The translations under genes were made by a program, and so were the position numbers. Below, piece after piece: positions 51,596-61,346 of a stretch of 64,000 nt of DNA. The notes under the pieces were generated by a model, which saw only the letters and a list, made by a program, of their open reading frames with translations, was not told the DNA's origin and did no database searches. The stretch's first letter is position 1. Every line of letters starts with the position of its first letter. The stretch spans positions 1-64,000 of the forward strand of contig NZ_JALKFS010000001.1 in NCBI RefSeq assembly GCF_023051145.1, in the 5' to 3' direction. The stretch is from Williamsia sp. DF01-3 (GTDB taxonomy: Bacteria > Actinomycetota > Actinomycetes > Mycobacteriales > Mycobacteriaceae).

Positions 51596-54363
51596 CTAGG
51601 GTGCGCGGGTAGTGATCTTGGCGAGGGCGGAGCTCAGTTGGGCGCGTGAGCGGATACCGAGTTTGCGGTAGATGCGGGTGAGGTTGACTTCGACGGTTTT
51701 TGGGCTGATGAACAGTGCGGCTGCTACGGCGCGTGTGGTCATGCCGGTCGCGACGAGGTCTGCGACGCGTTGTTCGGAGGGAGTCAGGGCGGCGATGTCC
51801 CTGGGTCCAATACTGACGCGGTCGAGTTCGGTGCGGGCCCGGGCGGCCCACAGAGGGGTGCCCAGCTTGTCGAAGGTCTGCAGTGCCTCGGACAGTGTTG
51901 CAGCTGCTGCTTCTTTTCGGCGTTGTCGACGTTGTAGTTGCCCTAGGAGCAGTTGGGTGCGGGCCTGCTCGAACGGCATGGGCAGCCGTTCGTGCTCGAC
52001 CATGGCGCGTGCGGCGTGTGTTTCGGCGGCATGAATGTTGTTGGCGGCGGCCAGAAGCATGCTGCGACCGCGGGCACCGAGGGCGAGCATCCAGGGTCGG
52101 TCCAGCGTAGATCCGTTGCGTTCGAGGGCGTAGACGAGCGGTTCTGCCTCCTCGGGGCGCCCGAGTGCGACGAGTGCTTCGACAGCGTCGGGAATGTATC
52201 CCGAGCTGAGGATTTCGGTCCCCGGGTGGATATGAAAGTTGTCGAGCAGCGGTCGTAGCGTGCTGATGGCTTCTGTGTAGTGGCCTAGGGACACCTCGAT
52301 GAAACCCAGGGTCATTGTGGGCCATTCGGAGAGGTAGCGTGAACCGCAGCGGCGGGCGTCGTCGATCACCTCCCGGGCCTGGGCACGGCTGTTGCGGTCG
52401 CCGGTGTAGGCGGTGACCATCACCCGCAGCAGCCGGGCGATGACAAGCATGTTCTTGCCGTCCAGTTGCTGCGCGCGTTCCATCGCGTCGTCGGCGACTT
52501 CGGCTGCCTCGGTGTAACGCCCTCGCCATATGTTGATCAAGATGGTGTGCCCGGCGACCCACATCATGTCGCTGTCAGCACCACGTTCGATGCACCGATG
52601 ACGCACGGCAGCCATCTGGGTGTGGGCCTGATCGAGTTGCCCTGTCCAGGCCAGCATCAACGCGTGCACCGCGCTGGGCCGGTATGGGACTGGCGCGTCG
52701 CCGCCCGGTCCTTCGAGCTCGAGCGCGCGGTGCATCGCGGCGGCATCGTAGCCGTGCCCGTAGGCGCATTTGAGTGTCACCCACATGGCCAGAGCGCTGC
52801 TGAGGACCGAGTGGTCGCCGCTGCCGTCGGCCACTGACACTGCTCGCGAAGCGTGATGCAACGCGCTCTCGAATTGGCCGTTCATGCCTTCGGCCATCGA
52901 CAGCGACAAGAGTGTGCGCGCGAGTATCGCCTGGTTGTCGGCGGCGTCGCCAAGTACCGATGTCAGCAGGTCAGCTGCCTCGACGAAGCTGTCGTCGTAC
53001 ATCCGTACCGCAGCAAGTAGATTCGCAGCGATGGCTCGCAGCAACCCTGCCGGCGATTGAGCCAGTGCCGGTTCGATGGCTTGTTGTGCTTTGAGCATGT
53101 CGGCGGCGCGGAAGTGGTGGCTGGCCGCACGGATGCGCCGCAGTGGGGTGTCGCCGCCGAGTGCGATTGCCAGGTCGGTCAATTCGCCGGCGGCCATCGG
53201 CGCTCCCTGCGCGCTGAGCGCTTCGGCGGCGCAGTCCAGCGCGTCCAGTGTTGTGGGGTTTGCAGTGGCCGCGGATAAGGCTAGGTGCCTGGCCCGCAAC
53301 TCGGGTTGGTCGATGATTGAGGCAAGGTTTCGGTGCACGGCTCGGCGCTGGGCGGGGGTGGCTTGGCTGTAGAGACCAGCGGTCAACAGCGGGTGGGTGA
53401 ACTCGACGCGGTTGCCGGCGATTGTCGCTATGTTCTGGGCCTCAGCGCCCTCGAGGATCTCAACGATACGGTCCACGGTTGCACCGCGAGCTTGGGCGAT
53501 CAGCTCGATTGTGGGTGCTGCCGCAGTTGCTGCTGTCAGCAGTACTTCTCGTGTGTGCTCGTCAAGTCGGTTCAGCCGCGCCTGCACGATCGCAGTGAGT
53601 GTGCCGGGTAAATGAACGTGATGGGTCGCTGCGAGACCGTTTGTGCTGCGGGCAAGTTCGAGGGCATAAAACGGGTTGCCCCCGAGATTTCGGCGATCCG
53701 CACGATCGCCGGCCGCGGTAGTGAGCGGCCCAAGCGGTGTGCGATGAGTGTATGAAGGCCGCCGAGAGTGAACGGCTTGAGGCGCAAGCGTTCGACTCCA
53801 TCGGGTCTGCTGAGCTGCAGCCAGGCGGCGGGATCGGCGGCACCCACCTCTGAGCGCACCGCGCCCAGGACACCGATTCGCCCCCGCGCCCGTCGTAGCG
53901 CAAACATCATCACTGCACGACTGGACGCATCGAGCCACTGCACATCGTCGACGGCAACTACTACCGGTGAGTGCTCGCCGAGGCGGTGCAGGATTGACAG
54001 AAACGCTGCGCCGACCACGTGTTCGTCAGAGGCAGGTCCTGACGCCGCCCGTGAGAGCACCCGGTCGACCGCGTCCTGCTGGGCCTGCGGCAAATGCTCG
54101 ACCACCGCCGGCTCGATGTCGCCCAGCACGTCGGCCAGGACCGCATAGGTGAGCACCACTTCAGCTGCGCCCGGTCGCGCTGCCAGGACCCTGAATCCTT
54201 GTTCCCGGGCCCGCTCGATCGCTGCCTGCCAGACGGTCGTCTTGCCAATACCGGCCTCGCCCTCGAACAACAACCCCGAGGGCTGCTCGTTAGCTGAGCT
54301 CAGGAAGCGCTGCAGCGCACCGAGTTCCGGGCGTCGGATCAACGGTGCTGACACACCACGCAT
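51596..54363 (-). pseudogene. LAL-type LuxR regulator, one frameshift
   Basis: Two frames together give a protein of about 920 residues. An N-terminal ATPase has P-loop GEAGIGKTT (about 36-44) and VVVAVDDVQWLD (Walker B, about 134-145). A helical TPR-like middle follows. The C-terminal LuxR HTH reads LTPSEQRVADLVATGMTTRAVAAALFISPKTVEVNLTRIYRKLG. The switch is at the C5 run 53680-53684: adding one base restores SGGNPFYALELARS. It is divergent from the peptide/M50 operon, which it may control. Confidence 0.8.
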
Positions 54364-54483
54364 GATTGCAGTTCCGGCATCAACAGGTTGCAGATCTCAA
54401 AAAGCGGAGGTTGCGCCTGCTCCGACCACTGTGCGGAGCTCCTGCAGGAACGCCGCGCTGCACGTGCGTGATTTCCTAAGTGT

Positions 54484-54495
54484 AGGGAAAACCCT
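54484..54495. promoter_or_regulatory. Dyad AGGG-AAAA-CCCT between the LuxR gene and the peptide operon
   Basis: This short palindrome (in TAGGGAAAACCCTG) is centred in the 190-bp divergent gap. It is a plausible LuxR/LAL-type binding site; only the symmetry is seen. Confidence 0.4.
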
Positions 54496-54554
54496 GATTC
54501 ATCCCATGTCCTCGCGGCCATAGCGTGCACAGTGTGTTGACCACACCGCCGAAT

Positions 54555-54974
54555 ATGAGCTGCTACCTCGTGGAGTGGTATCAGCCTGACCCAAGCGCAG
54601 CGCACCTCGACGACACCGTCGCAGACTTGCAAGCCCACGAGACCGCACACACTGCACGCCACACCGATGTTCGCTTGCTTCTGGCCGTGTCCGCGCCCCA
54701 CGACGAAGTGCTGTACTGCGTCTTCGCAGGCCACTCGTCTGACGCCGTCACCCGCGCCTGCGCCCACGCTGGCCACCCCGCCGAACGCATCACCCCCGAC
54801 GTCCACCTCCAGGTCACCGCGAATGAACTCGAATCCACTGCCACACGTGCGGCCCGCGCAGACCGCACGACCGCATCGTCGTCGATCACCCCCTCCACCC
54901 CGCGCGTTGGACCACCACCACACGATGCGCGCCCAACCACCCACTCACACAGGAAAAGAGGTGACACACCATGA
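54555..54974 (+). CDS. DUF4242-like small protein
   Basis: From ATG 54555 the protein has 139 residues (a GTG at 54534 is possible). The core (SCYLVEWYQPDPSAAHLDDTV, LLLAVSAPHDEVLYCVFAGHS, RACAHAGHPAERIT) resembles ferredoxin-like DUF4242/SCO4226-type nickel-binding proteins, which often sit beside LAL regulators. The His/Arg/Thr-rich tail after 90 is disordered. Its TGA overlaps the ATG of peptide gene 1, so peptide translation is coupled to it. Confidence 0.6.
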   Translation: MSCYLVEWYQPDPSAAHLDDTVADLQAHETAHTARHTDVRLLLAVSAPHDEVLYCVFAGHSSDAVTRACAHAGHPAERITPDVHLQVTANELESTATRAARADRTTASSSITPSTPRVGPPPHDARPTTHSHRKRGDTP

Positions 54975-55021
54975 TCCGCAAACTCACCCGCCTAGCCCGC
55001 GCCATACGCGGCCGCATCTGA
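54971..55021 (+). CDS. Mini-ORF 1: cationic 16-residue peptide
   Basis: ATG 54971 encodes MIRKLTRLARAIRGRI, then TGA. GAAAAGAGG is a well-placed ribosome site, and the start overlaps the preceding stop (ATGA). The peptide has a net charge of about +6 and is amphipathic as a helix. A nearly identical second copy follows 46 bp later. Two conserved copies with independent ribosome sites argue that it is translated. It could be a bacteriocin-like or signal peptide or a short precursor. Confidence 0.55.
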   Translation: MIRKLTRLARAIRGRI

Positions 55022-55067
55022 CCGCCAGTCAAGTCAACCCTCATCACACCGGAAAGGAGACAACACC

Positions 55068-55115
55068 ATGATCCGCAAACTCACCCGCCTGGCCCGTGCC
55101 ATGCGCGGACGGTGA
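55068..55115 (+). CDS. Mini-ORF 2: cationic 15-residue peptide
   Basis: ATG 55068 encodes MIRKLTRLARAMRGR, then TGA, after GGAAAGGAGA, a near-perfect ribosome site. It matches mini-ORF 1 at 14 of 15 positions, and several codon changes are silent (CTA/CTG, CGC/CGT, GGC/GGA). The stop overlaps a GTG that opens the next frame (GTGA). Confidence 0.55.
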   Translation: MIRKLTRLARAMRGR

Positions 55116-55426
55116 CTACCCACCTTCGACTGAGATCGACAACTGCGAACGGTCCGCGAGGCAGTCGCAGTGCCGCGTGGGCAATGGGCGTGGTCCTTGC
55201 CCGCGCGGCTCCAGTCGAAATTCGCTTCCTTCCAGTCCACAACGTGTCACGACGACAAGAGGGGACGGTCACTTCATGGTTGCGTTGGCCCCCCACACCC
55301 ACTACCGGGTCTCCAAACGCGGACTGGTGCTGGCGTGCCCGAACGGCGACACTGTTCTGTTCGAGCACCCACGAGCTGCGGACCTGCCGGTGCTACTCGC
55401 GACCAACCCCGACCCCAGCCATCTGA
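55112..55426 (+). pseudogene. Possible truncated lasso-B2-like (transglutaminase) remnant
   Basis: GTG 55112 overlaps the stop of mini-ORF 2. The first 45 residues (SRSAAWAMGVVLARAAPVEIRF) recall the N-terminus of actinobacterial lasso-peptide B2 proteins, which continue with a Cys protease core not present here; beyond 55276 the frame overlaps the M50 gene and loses sense. The resemblance is from memory and short, so this is tentative. Confidence 0.3.
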
Positions 55427-56502
55427 CGACCGCACTGGGACCACCACTGGACCCCACCGTGGTCGACGACCTCGTCGAACTCGGAGTGCTTACCAACGGC
55501 GACGACGATCCCGGCACCAACCACAGCTCGTCCCCCGCTCGTGAACGACGGTTCACAGTCTCCCGCAGCGGCCTGATGATCAAAGGAATCGCCACACCCT
55601 CGGCATGGCTGAACCGCCGACTCGTACCCCTCCTGACACATCCGTTGGGCCTCATTGTCATTGCCGCAGTCCTCGCCGCCGGCGGTATCGCACTCCTCTG
55701 TGGTCGCCCCGACGGCCTACCCAGGGTGAGCGACAGTCCGGCCACCGAAGCACTGCTGATGATCGCGCTCGGCATGACCGCAACCATCGCGCACGAGTTC
55801 GCCCACGCCGTCGCACTAAGTCACTACGGGCGAGCCCCGCGCCGCGCCGGTTTCGGCTTCTACTGGGGTGCGTTGTCGTTCTTCGTCGACTCCACACCAG
55901 CACTGACCCTGCCGCGCCACCAACGCGTCGTCCAGGCACTCATCGGTTTGGTCGTCGACGTTGTCACCACAGCCCTATTCGCCATCGCAGCACACCTCGT
56001 CCAAGACCCGCTCTTAGCAATCGTGTTCTGGCGCCTCGCTATCCTCGGCCTGGTAGACATCGGCATCAACGCGCTCCCCGTCCTGCAAGTCGATGGTCAC
56101 TGGGCCCTGGCCGACTTGCTTGACGAACCCGACCTCGGGCCCCGCGCCCGTCGCGCACTCGCCCACACAATCCGACGCCAACTGCCTGCCGGCCAACGCG
56201 CCCTGGCCGCCTACGGCGCGATCAGCCTCGCTGTCGGACTCACCATGATTGCCACCCTGGCCTACGCATTCTGGGCCACCACCGGCGACCTCGTCATAGC
56301 CCTGTTCAACGGTAACCCCGCCCAAATCGCCATCGGCCTCTACTACGTCGGCCCACTCGCCCTCGGCCTCATCTTCAGCACCCTCGGACTACTCCTCGAA
56401 AGCACAACGTCTAACACCCACACAACCCCCAATAGAACGGAGACGACACCTCCCTGCACTCCCACTGACCGCACACACCAACCACAGAAGGACTCATCAT
56501 GA
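55276..56502 (+). CDS. M50-type membrane metallopeptidase with N-terminal binding domain
   Basis: From ATG 55276 (GAGGGGA site) the protein has 408 residues. Residues 8-75 (YRVSKRGLVLACPNGDTVLF) form a small domain like the PqqD/recognition-type modules of peptide maturation proteins. Several membrane helices follow, with the zinc motif HEFAH at about 173-177 and the second M50 site LPVLQVDGHWALADL near 270-284 (Asp-Gly). It should cut peptides in or at the membrane. Right after two mini-peptide genes, it is a candidate processing, export or immunity protein. A longer GTG start at 55096 is less likely. Confidence 0.8.
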   Translation: MVALAPHTHYRVSKRGLVLACPNGDTVLFEHPRAADLPVLLATNPDPSHLTTALGPPLDPTVVDDLVELGVLTNGDDDPGTNHSSSPARERRFTVSRSGLMIKGIATPSAWLNRRLVPLLTHPLGLIVIAAVLAAGGIALLCGRPDGLPRVSDSPATEALLMIALGMTATIAHEFAHAVALSHYGRAPRRAGFGFYWGALSFFVDSTPALTLPRHQRVVQALIGLVVDVVTTALFAIAAHLVQDPLLAIVFWRLAILGLVDIGINALPVLQVDGHWALADLLDEPDLGPRARRALAHTIRRQLPAGQRALAAYGAISLAVGLTMIATLAYAFWATTGDLVIALFNGNPAQIAIGLYYVGPLALGLIFSTLGLLLESTTSNTHTTPNRTETTPPCTPTDRTHQPQKDSS

Positions 56503-56947
56503 AAACAAAAGCTCTTGCCACACTTGCCCTGACAGTCGCAGCGCTGACAACCGGGGTGTCCCCGGCGGCCGCAGCGCCGGCCACCTCGCCCGACAATTCG
56601 AACGCTCGGTTGATCCAATTCCCTGCCCGCGCCTTCCCGGCCGTCTACTCGAACGTGTCGCCTGAAAGCACCGACGCACCGATATACACCGGTACCATCC
56701 TCACCACAGCGCAGACTCGGGCCGTCCGCGACTCCGGAGCACTCGGAATCGCGAAAACCGTAGCGCCGTATAACTACAACGAGATCGCCGGGAACATCGA
56801 ATCGAAGGCCAACAGCGCTCTCGCCCTCAACCCCCGGGCTGCGTGCGCCTCTATTACACCCCCAGAGGCAAAGACCCACGGTTCCCCGGTTTCTACGCCG
56901 CCACCATCGACGCAAAGTTCTGCAACCCGCCCTACCTCATCCCGTAA
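56499..56947 (+). pseudogene. Secreted small protein, frameshifted near the end
   Basis: It begins with an ATGA overlap with the M50 stop. A clear signal peptide (MKTKALATLALTVAALTTGV, cut near AAAAPA) leads a mature part of about 120 residues. At the C5 run 56831-56835 the sensible frame changes to CVRLYYTPRGKDPRFPGFY, ending NPPYLIP at 56947. Adding one C gives a protein of about 148 residues. Uncorrected, the frame ends at 56954 in a Ser/Thr-rich tail. It belongs to the peptide/M50 operon. Confidence 0.65.
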
Positions 56948-56996
56948 TCGCTAGCCAGACCATCTGGCCTGAACAACCACAGCGGAAGTGTTCTAT

Positions 56997-57464
56997 ATGC
57001 GTAAGTTCATAACCGGTGGCGTCGCAGCGTCCACATCACTCGCGCTGGGACTCCTGGGCGCAGCGTCGGCCTCAGCGGCCGAAGACAGCGTAAAGGTCAC
57101 CGCCCAGGGCGGAGTGGAAAGCGTCGACGTGCTCATCGACAACCGCACGGGGGGCGCCATCGAATGCCTGGTGGGAGGAACCGATGGGGTTGAAGACGGC
57201 AAGTTCTTCGCTGTTCCCGGCGAGGTTCTCTATCCGATCGGGTCCACACCAATCCACTTTGACGACGTATCCCCTGGCACCTACCAGCCCATTATCTCAT
57301 GTACGTCCAACACTCTTGGTGAGGCTTGGTTGACCAAAGCTGCGTTTATAAACGGGCCCCCCGAAAACCCCGAACCCGGACTCTGGGTGCTACCAAGCGT
57401 CCCGTTGACGGTGAGAGCGGCACCCGTTGATCCGGGGAACTGCTTCGGCTCAATCTGCTTCTAA
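56997..57464 (+). CDS. Secreted protein with conserved GNCFGSICF end (paralogue 1)
   Basis: The ATG at 56997 opens 155 residues. The signal peptide (MRKFITGGVAASTSLALGLL, cut near SASAAE) is followed by a beta-rich domain (VKVTAQGGVESVDVLIDNRT, PGTYQPIISCTSNTLGEAWL). The C-terminus is DPGNCFGSICF, with two close Cys. The gene at 62340-62810 encodes a close paralogue with the same ending. Function unknown; the exact conservation of the last nine residues suggests they matter for sorting or binding. Confidence 0.75.
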   Translation: MRKFITGGVAASTSLALGLLGAASASAAEDSVKVTAQGGVESVDVLIDNRTGGAIECLVGGTDGVEDGKFFAVPGEVLYPIGSTPIHFDDVSPGTYQPIISCTSNTLGEAWLTKAAFINGPPENPEPGLWVLPSVPLTVRAAPVDPGNCFGSICF

Positions 57465-57587
57465 GTCCAACCCTTCAGCGATCTACTTCCCGGCAGACGT
57501 CGCACTCCACTAGGAGTGCCTGGTGAGAGCGACTGCAAATACTGAAGATCGGGGCTACGTAGCAATCCGGACAACCGCTACCCCACC

Positions 57588-57660
57588 GATCAACCTGACG
57601 TAATCATTGTTACCGGCGTGATCAATTGCGGCACAATATGTTTCGTCACCAGTGACGAAA
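57588..57660 (+). repeat. Dispersed two-palindrome element, copy 4
   Basis: The first palindrome is damaged (GATCAACCTGACG); the middle (TAATCATTGTTACCGGCGTG) and the perfect second palindrome TTTCGTCACCAGTGACGAAA (57641-57660) are kept. Read on the minus strand it supplies the last 24 or so codons and the stop of the lipoprotein gene 57590-58108. Confidence 0.8.
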
Positions 57661-60300: not shown

Positions 60301-60560
60301 TATGACCTTATCGGCAGGCGGCTGAGCAGTCTGATAAGTGGCCGCATGAGAACCGGCGATGGAACGTCGTGGGCGCCGCGGATCTGCCACACGAACCGTA
60401 GATCCAATTTCCGTTTCGTCATCCACGGACACCGCGGCCATGGTTACACTGACTGGGCTGAAAAGTGCAGCAGTCGCGCTCTATCGATCTCCGGTCGGTT
60501 TCTTCTGGAACGGCCGCACGGAGGTTCCTCCGCCACTGTCAAGAACGAATTGGGGATGAG

Positions 60561-61346
60561 ATGTCCAGTGATCAGCGCCGCACGATGACGCGGGAATTGA
60601 CGCGGATACGCAGAGGTAGTGCTGCGGCACTGGGCGCCATCGTGGTCGCAGCGTCGGCTTCGTTCTTGGCGGCCCCACCCGCCTACGCCGACACCGTGAT
60701 CGGTACCTGCACCATTGTTACCGATCCCGTGCCGGGGGTACGTGTGACGTCCTGCCCCGGTGCGCTCCTTAACGACCAGAACCTGGCGGGGGTAGATCTC
60801 ACGGGCGCTAACCTGGCCGGTGCAGATCTGACCCGCACAGTCTTGAACGGCGCGCACCTGGCAGGCGCCAACCTCATCAACGCCGTGTTTACGCGTACCA
60901 GGCTTACCAACGCTGACTTGCGTTTTGCGAATCTAACTGGCGCGCGGCTGACAGGTGCGTACATGAGTTACTCGCACCTGAACTACGCCAATCTGGTCAA
61001 CGCGTCCTTGGCTCTCGCCGATCTAACGGGGGCCGATATGAGCTACGCGAATATGACCGGTACTCGCATGAACGGAGCAACAGTCGATGGGGCGAATTTC
61101 ACCGGCGCCATTGAAGTCGACTTAGCGGAGACAAGAGGCACCCCACTTCCAGACCAACAGACCCAGGGACCGGCAGGTCCGCAGGGACCCCAAGGCAATC
61201 CAGGACCTACCGGCCCACAAGGCCCCCAAGGCAATCCAGGACCTACCGGCCCACAAGGCCCCCAAGGCAATCCAGGACCTACCGGCCCACAAGGACCCCA
61301 AGGCCATCCAGGACCTACCGGTCCACCGCTGTTCGGCAGCAGTTAG
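60561..61346 (+). CDS. Secreted pentapeptide-repeat protein with collagen-like tail
   Basis: From ATG 60561 (GGGATGAG site) the protein has 261 residues. A signal peptide ends near PPAYADT (about 43). Residues about 70-190 are pentapeptide repeats (A[DN]LxG pattern: [21 protein letters not shown]), which fold as a square beta helix. Residues about 200-255 are collagen-like Gly-x-y repeats ([19 protein letters not shown]). Two Cys follow the signal peptide. A secreted fusion of a beta helix and a collagen rod is unusual; adhesion or surface display is a guess. Confidence 0.8.
61194..61325 (+). repeat. 36-bp tandem repeat coding the collagen-like tail
   Basis: Units start at 61194, 61230 and 61266 with a partial fourth at 61302. 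Each codes [12 protein letters not shown], and the DNA copies are almost identical, so copy number could vary between strains. Confidence 0.85.

Follow-up and report, generated by a model that had tools for sequence, protein, structure and literature searches.

The RiPP recognition element (RRE; RiPP, ribosomally synthesized and post-translationally modified peptide) is a domain that grips precursor peptides, and in microcin C7 a very short leaderless peptide, MccA, is held by the RRE-like clamp of MccB, which adenylylates the peptide and carries no protease fusion. Epipeptides are radical-SAM modified, and the SHP pheromones are hydrophobic, with Rgg as their regulator and an unlinked protease, Eep, that has no RRE. 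Among the membrane proteases that act on peptides, MpaP cleaves the leader from daptide precursors (PMC10036551), EpeP is believed both to cut its peptide and to export it (PMC10885120), and TmcP, a HExxH protease of the site-2 clan, cuts TmcA in the membrane (PMC13252029). Here we analyze a locus in a 64,000-nucleotide stretch of Williamsia sp. DF01-3 (the window; positions 1 to 64,000 of contig NZ_JALKFS010000001.1), in which two open reading frames (ORFs) of 15-16 codons precede the gene of an M50-type membrane protease with a predicted RRE at its N terminus. The locus appears to encode a minute system for making peptides, of a kind not described before.

The two mini-ORFs encode arginine-rich peptides and are separated by 46 bp; a sequence-only reading of this DNA had named both, each with its own ribosome site, and exactly these peptides are present (Table 1). 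It had also coupled them by ATGA to a DUF4242-like gene, which is borne out by the overlap of the start of mini-ORF 1 with the stop of the SCO4226-like gene at 54971-54974 and by the match of that gene to PF14026, presumably the former DUF4242. Window ORFs of 12-24 amino acids with a ribosome-site-like motif (n=81) were scored with a head profile derived solely from other genomes; both mini-ORFs score 28.6 and the next ORF 1.8, and the two are the sole adjacent similar pair among the 81.

Table 1. Features of the locus in window coordinates.
Feature	Position	Strand	Basis or remark
LAL-type LuxR regulator, two frames in this assembly	51596..54363	-	AAA_16 and GerE matches
LAL-LuxR, TPR/HTH C-terminal part	51596-53938	-	
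LAL-LuxR, ATPase N-terminal part	53572-54363	-	
Palindrome AGGGAAAACCCTG, likely regulator site	54484..54496	.	AGGGAAAACCCT dyad
TAGCGT, -10-like box	54521..54526	+	37 nt after first base of palindrome
SCO4226-like (PF14026) protein, accessory; probable start ATG 54555	54555..54974	+	Pfam E 1.2e-7
Ribosome-site-like AGAGGTGA of mini-ORF 1	54957..54964	+	sequence
Mini-ORF 1, peptide MIRKLTRLARAIRGRI, head-tail MIRKLTRLAR-AIRGRI	54971..55021	+	head-profile score, conservation
Ribosome-site-like AAAGGAGA of mini-ORF 2	55053..55060	+	sequence
Mini-ORF 2, peptide MIRKLTRLARAMRGR, head-tail MIRKLTRLAR-AMRGR	55068..55115	+	head-profile score, conservation
Strong GC-rich hairpin between mini-ORFs and protease gene	55172..55209	+	fold of 55116-55260, z -2.65
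RRE-M50 (site-2-type) membrane metalloprotease, 408 aa	55276..56502	+	NF041824 daptide_HExxH, structure matches
RRE-like N-terminal domain, protease residues 1-75	55276..55500	+	model pLDDT 85, structure matches
Signal-peptide-like ORF coupled to M50 gene, not conserved	56499..56954	+	no match in 16 loci

A scan of genome contigs found 15 related loci (given L numbers below), 14 at 45-63% protein identity and one at 33%, plus one locus in the genus of the window. In a tree of 67 proteins the window protease falls in one clade of 17, in which the 15 members that we called mini-ORF carriers group with L003 and L013; clade support is 93/90 with the long-branched L016 and 100/100 without it. A fixed mini-ORF rule was applied on the protease strand to the 17 clade loci and to 50 loci outside the clade, over at most 1.5 kb on each side, the available flank of most outside loci being about 1.5 kb or less. 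The strict head motif was found in 10 of the 17 clade loci (window, L004, L005, L008, L009, L010, L012, L014, L015 and L017) and in none of the 50 outside loci. A relaxed rule, requiring a short ORF with at least 35% Arg/Lys and no acidic residue, was satisfied by 14/17 clade loci versus 4/50 outside; L002, L007, L011 and L016 satisfy this rule only, and L006 satisfies neither, its peptide MLRILKRLARLVRYP being judged by eye to carry the head plainly. With the looser relatives of five more clade members, the mini-ORFs are by our reading conserved beside 15 of the 17 homologous proteases. The copies in L004, L005, L006, L008, L009, L010, L012, L014 and L017 had first been listed by a filter of start, length and ribosome site that used no motif. 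At the DNA level, the strict pattern ATG-MTN-MGN-MRN-YTN-NNN-MGN-YTN-DSN-MGN gave 15 matches in nine of the 17 whole genomes searched, all at protease loci, and the reversed control pattern gave none in the same genomes. These sequence comparisons strongly support the mini-ORFs as conserved genes tied to one protease clade.

The peptides consist of a head of 10 conserved residues, M-I/L-R-x-L-x-R-L-A-R, and a variable tail mostly of 4-7 residues. Selection was assessed on tandem copies of five multi-copy loci (the window, L008, L009, L012 and L004, the last minus a degenerate third copy); the two copies of L015 and the three of L011 were not used. Out of 153 comparisons of head codons (2-10), 59 show a difference, which is synonymous in 50 and nonsynonymous in 9; for tail codons 63 of 83 comparisons show one, synonymous in 18 and nonsynonymous in 45. 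In seven non-overlapping pairs the synonymous to nonsynonymous ratio is 21:3 for the head and 7:19 for the tail (Fisher p 1.7e-5), and in eight pairs codons 2-11 show 28 synonymous versus 8 nonsynonymous changes where neutrality predicts a synonymous share of 0.344 (p 1.3e-7), p-values that serve as guides because copies within a locus share history. Between loci, R3, R7, L8 and R10 are invariant in 21 canonical peptides out of the 29 listed (L002, L004_3, L007, three L011 copies, L015_2 and L016 being left out), and positions 11, 12 and 14 show 2.6-3.1 bits of variety; the head conservation seen here is partly by choice, since the 21 were kept for showing the head. On the codon evidence the head is under purifying selection and the tail changes freely between tandem copies. 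This contrast is what a constant part for recognition joined to a changeable part for the product would give, a leader and core on a very small scale, and in this respect is consistent with a RiPP precursor.

By our reading, mini-ORFs of the same kind lie upstream of the protease gene in L002, L004, L005, L006, L008, L009, L010, L012, L014 and L017, and downstream in L007, L011, L015 and L016. Those close to the protease are on its strand in one to four copies, with start-to-start spacings of 86-97 bases in 13 of 14 cases and 144 in the remaining one (L011). The last mini-ORF is followed by a hairpin with z of -2.65 or lower in 9/14 loci (a repeat in L002 was seen and left out of the folding set). 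Because most copies are 5' of the protease and the hairpin often comes after them, the mini-ORFs could be read as upstream leader ORFs, arginine-rich attenuators controlling translation or transcription of the protease, but downstream copies largely refute this. The mini-ORF of L007, L015 and L016 begins 3-5 bases past the end of the protease gene and is therefore not merely an upstream leader, and the same holds against attenuation for the downstream copies in L011; synonymous Arg/Leu codons also swap freely while the residues are kept, and additional arrays are found on the opposite strand, kilobases away from the protease. We regard attenuation as very improbable. The arrays belong to Actinomycetospora: at L011 a further opposite-strand array (L104) has seven starts and two more, nine in all, and L013 has six mini-ORF starts (L103) at a distance of about 17.6 kb from its protease, again on the opposite strand. 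The arrays L104 (17329-18025) and L103 (12066-13023), from two Actinomycetospora genomes, are mostly of the form MLTRxxRRTRGR/MLTRxRRLTRGR, and L104 is located beyond a kinase with beta-propeller domains.

The HExxH motif of the window protease is HEFAH at residues 173-177, and H173, E174, A176, H177, N265, P268, D273 and G274 are the same in all 15 aligned members, the window protease being one of them; together with the distal NxxP...DG metal-ligand motif this places the enzyme in the M50/site-2 type. The full model (predicted local distance difference test, pLDDT, 80) aligns with SpoIVFB (Z 6.0, 148 aligned, root-mean-square deviation (rmsd) 5.7) and with the Methanocaldococcus jannaschii site-2 protease mjS2P (Z 5.8, 119 aligned, rmsd 3.6). 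A full-length Foldseek search gave no match at E <=0.001, with the lasso B1 and TbiB1 RRE domains present in its list, and no solved relatives were found by sequence. The N-terminal 79 residues were modelled with a mean pLDDT of 85, and their order of strands and helices fits the RRE winged fold, a three-stranded sheet with three helices like that of PqqD and RREs. The best Foldseek matches of this model are lasso B1, TbiB1, McbB and PbtF, with a probability of 0.97-0.99 in the first five, and the leader-bound lasso B1, TbiB1 and PbtF RRE domains are among its best structure matches. In VIA it matches TbiB1 (Z 7.1, rmsd 3.6, 76 aligned), TigE (7.0), ThcOx (6.8), the PbtF RRE (6.7), McbB (6.2), MccB (6.2) and PqqD itself (4.8); McbB, TruD, ThcOx and MccB are proteins that we take to contain RREs. 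The PqqD-like recognition module suspected from the sequence thus reappears as a predicted RRE fold of the first ~75 residues, with moderate strength from the model and structure matches. The net charge of this region is -2 to -7 in 13/13 members, opposite in sign to that of the peptides (+5 to +10 in 29 peptides). Two further protease genes were noted: in L012 (5001-6120, Mycobacterium sp. MYCO198283) the gene is split in two frames beside four intact mini-ORFs, and the genome of Actinomycetospora endophytica (G776) has at a second site, L070, a second, partial match (profile 220-380).

The best NCBIfam match of the window protease is NF041824 (daptide_HExxH; E 1.1e-33), and both NF041824 and NF058609 (LiaK/YydH) match 15/15 aligned members. 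Daptide systems likewise have an N-terminal RRE fused to a site-2 protease, MpaP, and several similar short ORFs, and many are from Actinomycetota; however, their precursors carry an ELExMEAP motif in the leader and end in an invariant Thr, whereas those here have 14-17 residues, and they encode an alcohol dehydrogenase, an aminotransferase, a methyltransferase, an RRE protein and transporters, none of which is common to the loci here (PMC10036551). A diverged daptide cluster, for which the NF041824 matches and the RRE-site-2 fusion with multiple short ORFs would speak, is extremely improbable: the window protease scores 116.9 bits, below the cut-off of 300, which rejects membership, ELExMEAP occurs in 0/29 mini-ORFs and a C-terminal Thr in L009_4 only, and no oxidoreductase/aminotransferase/methyltransferase set with an RRE partner is common to the loci (flanks mostly 5 kb) or was found among the window proteins scanned or, as a set, among 20 chosen neighbours. 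EpeP, of the YydH/LiaK family, is likewise an M50 membrane protease that matures a small peptide (PMC10885120). Membership of the epipeptide (YydF/EpeX) family is rejected by a score of 29.1 bits versus the NF058609 cut-off of 225, and no radical SAM epimerase was found among eight other window proteins and the 20 neighbours scanned, a subset of the neighbours. The TMcin system shares a peptide-processing protease of the site-2 clan, TmcP (PF11667), but differs by a TmcA with a 45-residue leader and a transmembrane helix and by a disulfide enzyme, an ABC transporter and an escort protein (PMC13252029). The window protease matches PF11667 weakly (E 0.021). Microcin C7 is alike in its very short leaderless peptide and RRE-like clamp, MccB being among the N-terminal structure matches. 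Biarylitides share a minimal precursor gene that evades annotation and differ in their five-residue precursor and P450 cross-linking; the SHP/Rgg pheromones with Eep are alike in linking a tiny-ORF peptide to an M50 protease and a regulator.

We propose, with about even confidence, a self-contained cassette in which an RRE-fused intramembrane metalloprotease of the site-2 type is encoded together with one or more precursor genes of 14-17 codons and, in most cases, a hairpin; the head would be recruited, the peptide cut and the tail or trimmed peptide released. We infer the binding, cleavage, product and role as follows. The RRE of the protease would recruit the Arg/Leu head, the M50 domain would cut close to where head and tail meet (about LAR/x-x-R), and either the tail or the trimmed peptide could then exit the cell to act as a signal or an antibacterial agent; owing to the hairpin, transcripts of the peptide genes may be more abundant than those of the protease. 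By analogy, the type of protease would fit this route because EpeP, MpaP and TmcP act on peptides. The earlier idea that a short cationic peptide is paired with a dedicated membrane protease stands, by the clade-linked mini-ORFs, the synonymous bias and the predicted RRE; of the two findings named with it as refuting, a lack of conserved mini-ORFs beside homologous proteases and equal synonymous and nonsynonymous rates, neither was obtained. More tentatively, the mini-ORFs may encode micro-precursors in which a leader of 10 residues is joined to a hypervariable core, mostly of 4-7 residues, and which are recognised, cut and perhaps exported by the one RRE-intramembrane protease to give a strain repertoire of tetra- to heptapeptides (for example NWRG, TWRI and AIRGRI); if this were true, each strain would secrete a small peptide repertoire for signalling or competition.

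The same peptides might instead be micro-regulators or ligands, the RRE or the membrane face binding a 15-residue helix that switches the protease on or off toward another target. Their short, leaderless and cationic nature and the complementary charge of the RRE would suit such a role, as would L003, which keeps the protease without a recognisable peptide, so that another target or function is possible; yet the tails of tandem copies diverge (of 63 differing codons, 45 are nonsynonymous) and, like the L104 and L103 arrays, have the look of varied products, and the known relatives are maturation proteases. We hold this to be unlikely. It is likewise improbable that the peptide is an unmodified membrane-active bacteriocin or small toxin that the protease degrades inside the producer as self-protection, since the RRE suggests ordered recognition more than degradation and a helix-forming toxin acting freely should be constrained over its entire length, unlike the variable tail seen here; the charge of +5 to +10, the partly amphipathic character and the patchy distribution (2/112 and 4/18 genomes, see below) point the other way, and L003 could then be protease-only immunity.

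Several findings weigh against the proposed cassette. A soluble-looking peptide of 14-17 residues is an unusual substrate for an intramembrane protease, and no transporter or modifying enzyme was common to the loci in the flanks examined. For the RRE region, the Foldseek E-values are weak (0.03-0.07, 0.03 being the best), Z values of 6-8 are in a range that VIA calls common, and the top VIA row, BmdC (Z 8.2), is an oxidase. L002, L006, L007, L011 and L016 rest on looser matches, L016 being the weakest; the nearest L011 copies are ~1.1 kb beyond the protease match; and the single relaxed match of L003 is located opposite the LuxR gene and probably due to chance, with no head-motif mini-ORF within ~19 kb and no match to the DNA pattern genome-wide. 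That pattern missed eight of the 17 genomes, six of which (G002 and those of L006, L007, L011, L016 and L017) have copies that it cannot match, while L013 has only a distant array and L003 none. The tie of the L104 and L103 arrays to the protease is weaker because they are on the opposite strand and the L103 copies score 5-10 on the head profile, near background. Outside the clade, weak arginine/lysine-rich ORFs without the head motif were seen, and of the four outside loci passing the relaxed rule two (L084 and L086) have a similar Lys/Arg-rich ORF. The hairpin is weak or absent in 5/14 loci, with intervals chosen by eye, the tail is not wholly free as position 13 is Arg in 18/21, and amphipathicity is better than that of shuffles (<0.05) in only 9/29 peptides, neither window copy included.

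Two kinds of loci deserve separate mention. L003 (4910, 6991), from Mycolicibacterium xanthum, keeps the protease, the LAL gene and two palindrome copies without a head-motif mini-ORF, and is possibly a protease-only locus acting as receiver or immunity. L084 and L086 are related loci with a short Lys/Arg-rich ORF (MTKRLRKAKRARK...) near the protease; these ORFs are possibly distant relatives or chance occurrences.

The regulator had been read as a LAL-type LuxR gene divergent from the mini-ORFs with a dyad between, and both its orientation and the dyad at 54484 are real, but the gene is split in two frames. Both parts align to a single gene in L003, L004 and L012, so that the LAL regulator is common to these loci and the window. 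An AGGG-N4-CCCTG-type palindrome was found in four of six mycobacterial-family loci scanned, exactly those with the LAL gene, and not in the other two, L005 and L074; with a search pattern derived from the window site itself, the window has no second site at <=3 mismatches (0.21 expected). TAGCGT/TAGCCT occurs 36-37 nt after the palindrome, counted by eye, in the window, in L012 and at two sites in L003 (before the M50 gene and before the LuxR gene), and is absent at this spacing in L004. The LAL-LuxR activator probably drives the promoter via the AGGGAAAACCCT site in the four loci.

The start of the SCO4226-like gene is likely ATG 54555, because GTG 54525 falls in promoter-like sequence. When 16 other loci were tested, this gene turned up in L004 alone, on the far side of the regulator, and the signal-peptide-like gene had no match in any of them; both are for this reason placed outside the conserved core. 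The ATGA coupling claimed for the signal-peptide-like gene is confirmed, its start overlapping the M50 stop, but its frame ends at 56954 and not at 56947, which is the stop of another frame that also reads as plausible protein; the gene therefore looks frame-broken, at ~56830-56850 as judged by eye. The breaks in this ORF and in the LAL-LuxR gene (53572-53938) are near short C/G runs and could be assembly error or real decay. Elsewhere in the window, the ORF 60465-61346 has pentapeptide-like repeats and then a collagen-like tail. In flanks of up to 5 kb (ORFs of at least 90 amino acids), no family besides the protease was common to more than four loci, and no RiPP modification enzyme was common to the loci. 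The twenty chosen neighbours include a LysE exporter, a sigma factor, a P450-reductase, a stress protein, acetate kinase, a major facilitator superfamily transporter, two protein kinases, SnoaL, a carboxyltransferase, a reductase and a LuxR-type regulator (L006); eight had no match at E 1e-5.

Counted as proteases, L003 and L013 included, the system is found in 2/112 genomes of the Blastococcus family, 4/18 of Actinomycetospora, 1/186 of the Humibacillus family, 2/150 of the Actinoplanes family and 2/9 of the genus of the window, own genome included, with four close matches among 401 genomes of the window's family. A class draw of 394 genomes gave 27 matches at E 1e-20, only two of them close, and a phylum draw of 396 genomes gave 24 at E 1e-35, the only close one being the window's own. 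Such a sparse, patchy protease distribution suits horizontal spread or frequent loss. A phage origin was rejected, the protease having no match in phages or PHROGs and 50 viral-contig candidates including no confirmed relative, as was a known defence system (no PADLOC match for five proteins); 54500-57480 has no match in plasmids and 54300-57600 contains no known RNA family.

Daptides already provide a precedent for fusing an RRE to a protease, and biarylitides and microcin C have tiny precursors; in the open-licence PubMed Central literature searched, six peptide strings had no match and no description of the pairing of mini-ORF and RRE-protease was found, the papers retrieved for an RRE with a site-2 protease and a precursor peptide being the daptide paper and one unrelated review. 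If our proposal is right, few RRE-guided peptide systems would be smaller than this one, with one protease and genes mostly of 45-54 bases, short enough for annotation to miss. The cassette is a compact model for asking how short, soluble-looking peptides are selected by an intramembrane protease, and the head DNA pattern is a search tool for more such systems. The pairing recurs in actinobacteria of several families, and the way the tail varies from copy to copy points to a part in signalling or competition for mycobacteria, Actinomycetospora, Geodermatophilaceae and Micromonosporaceae.

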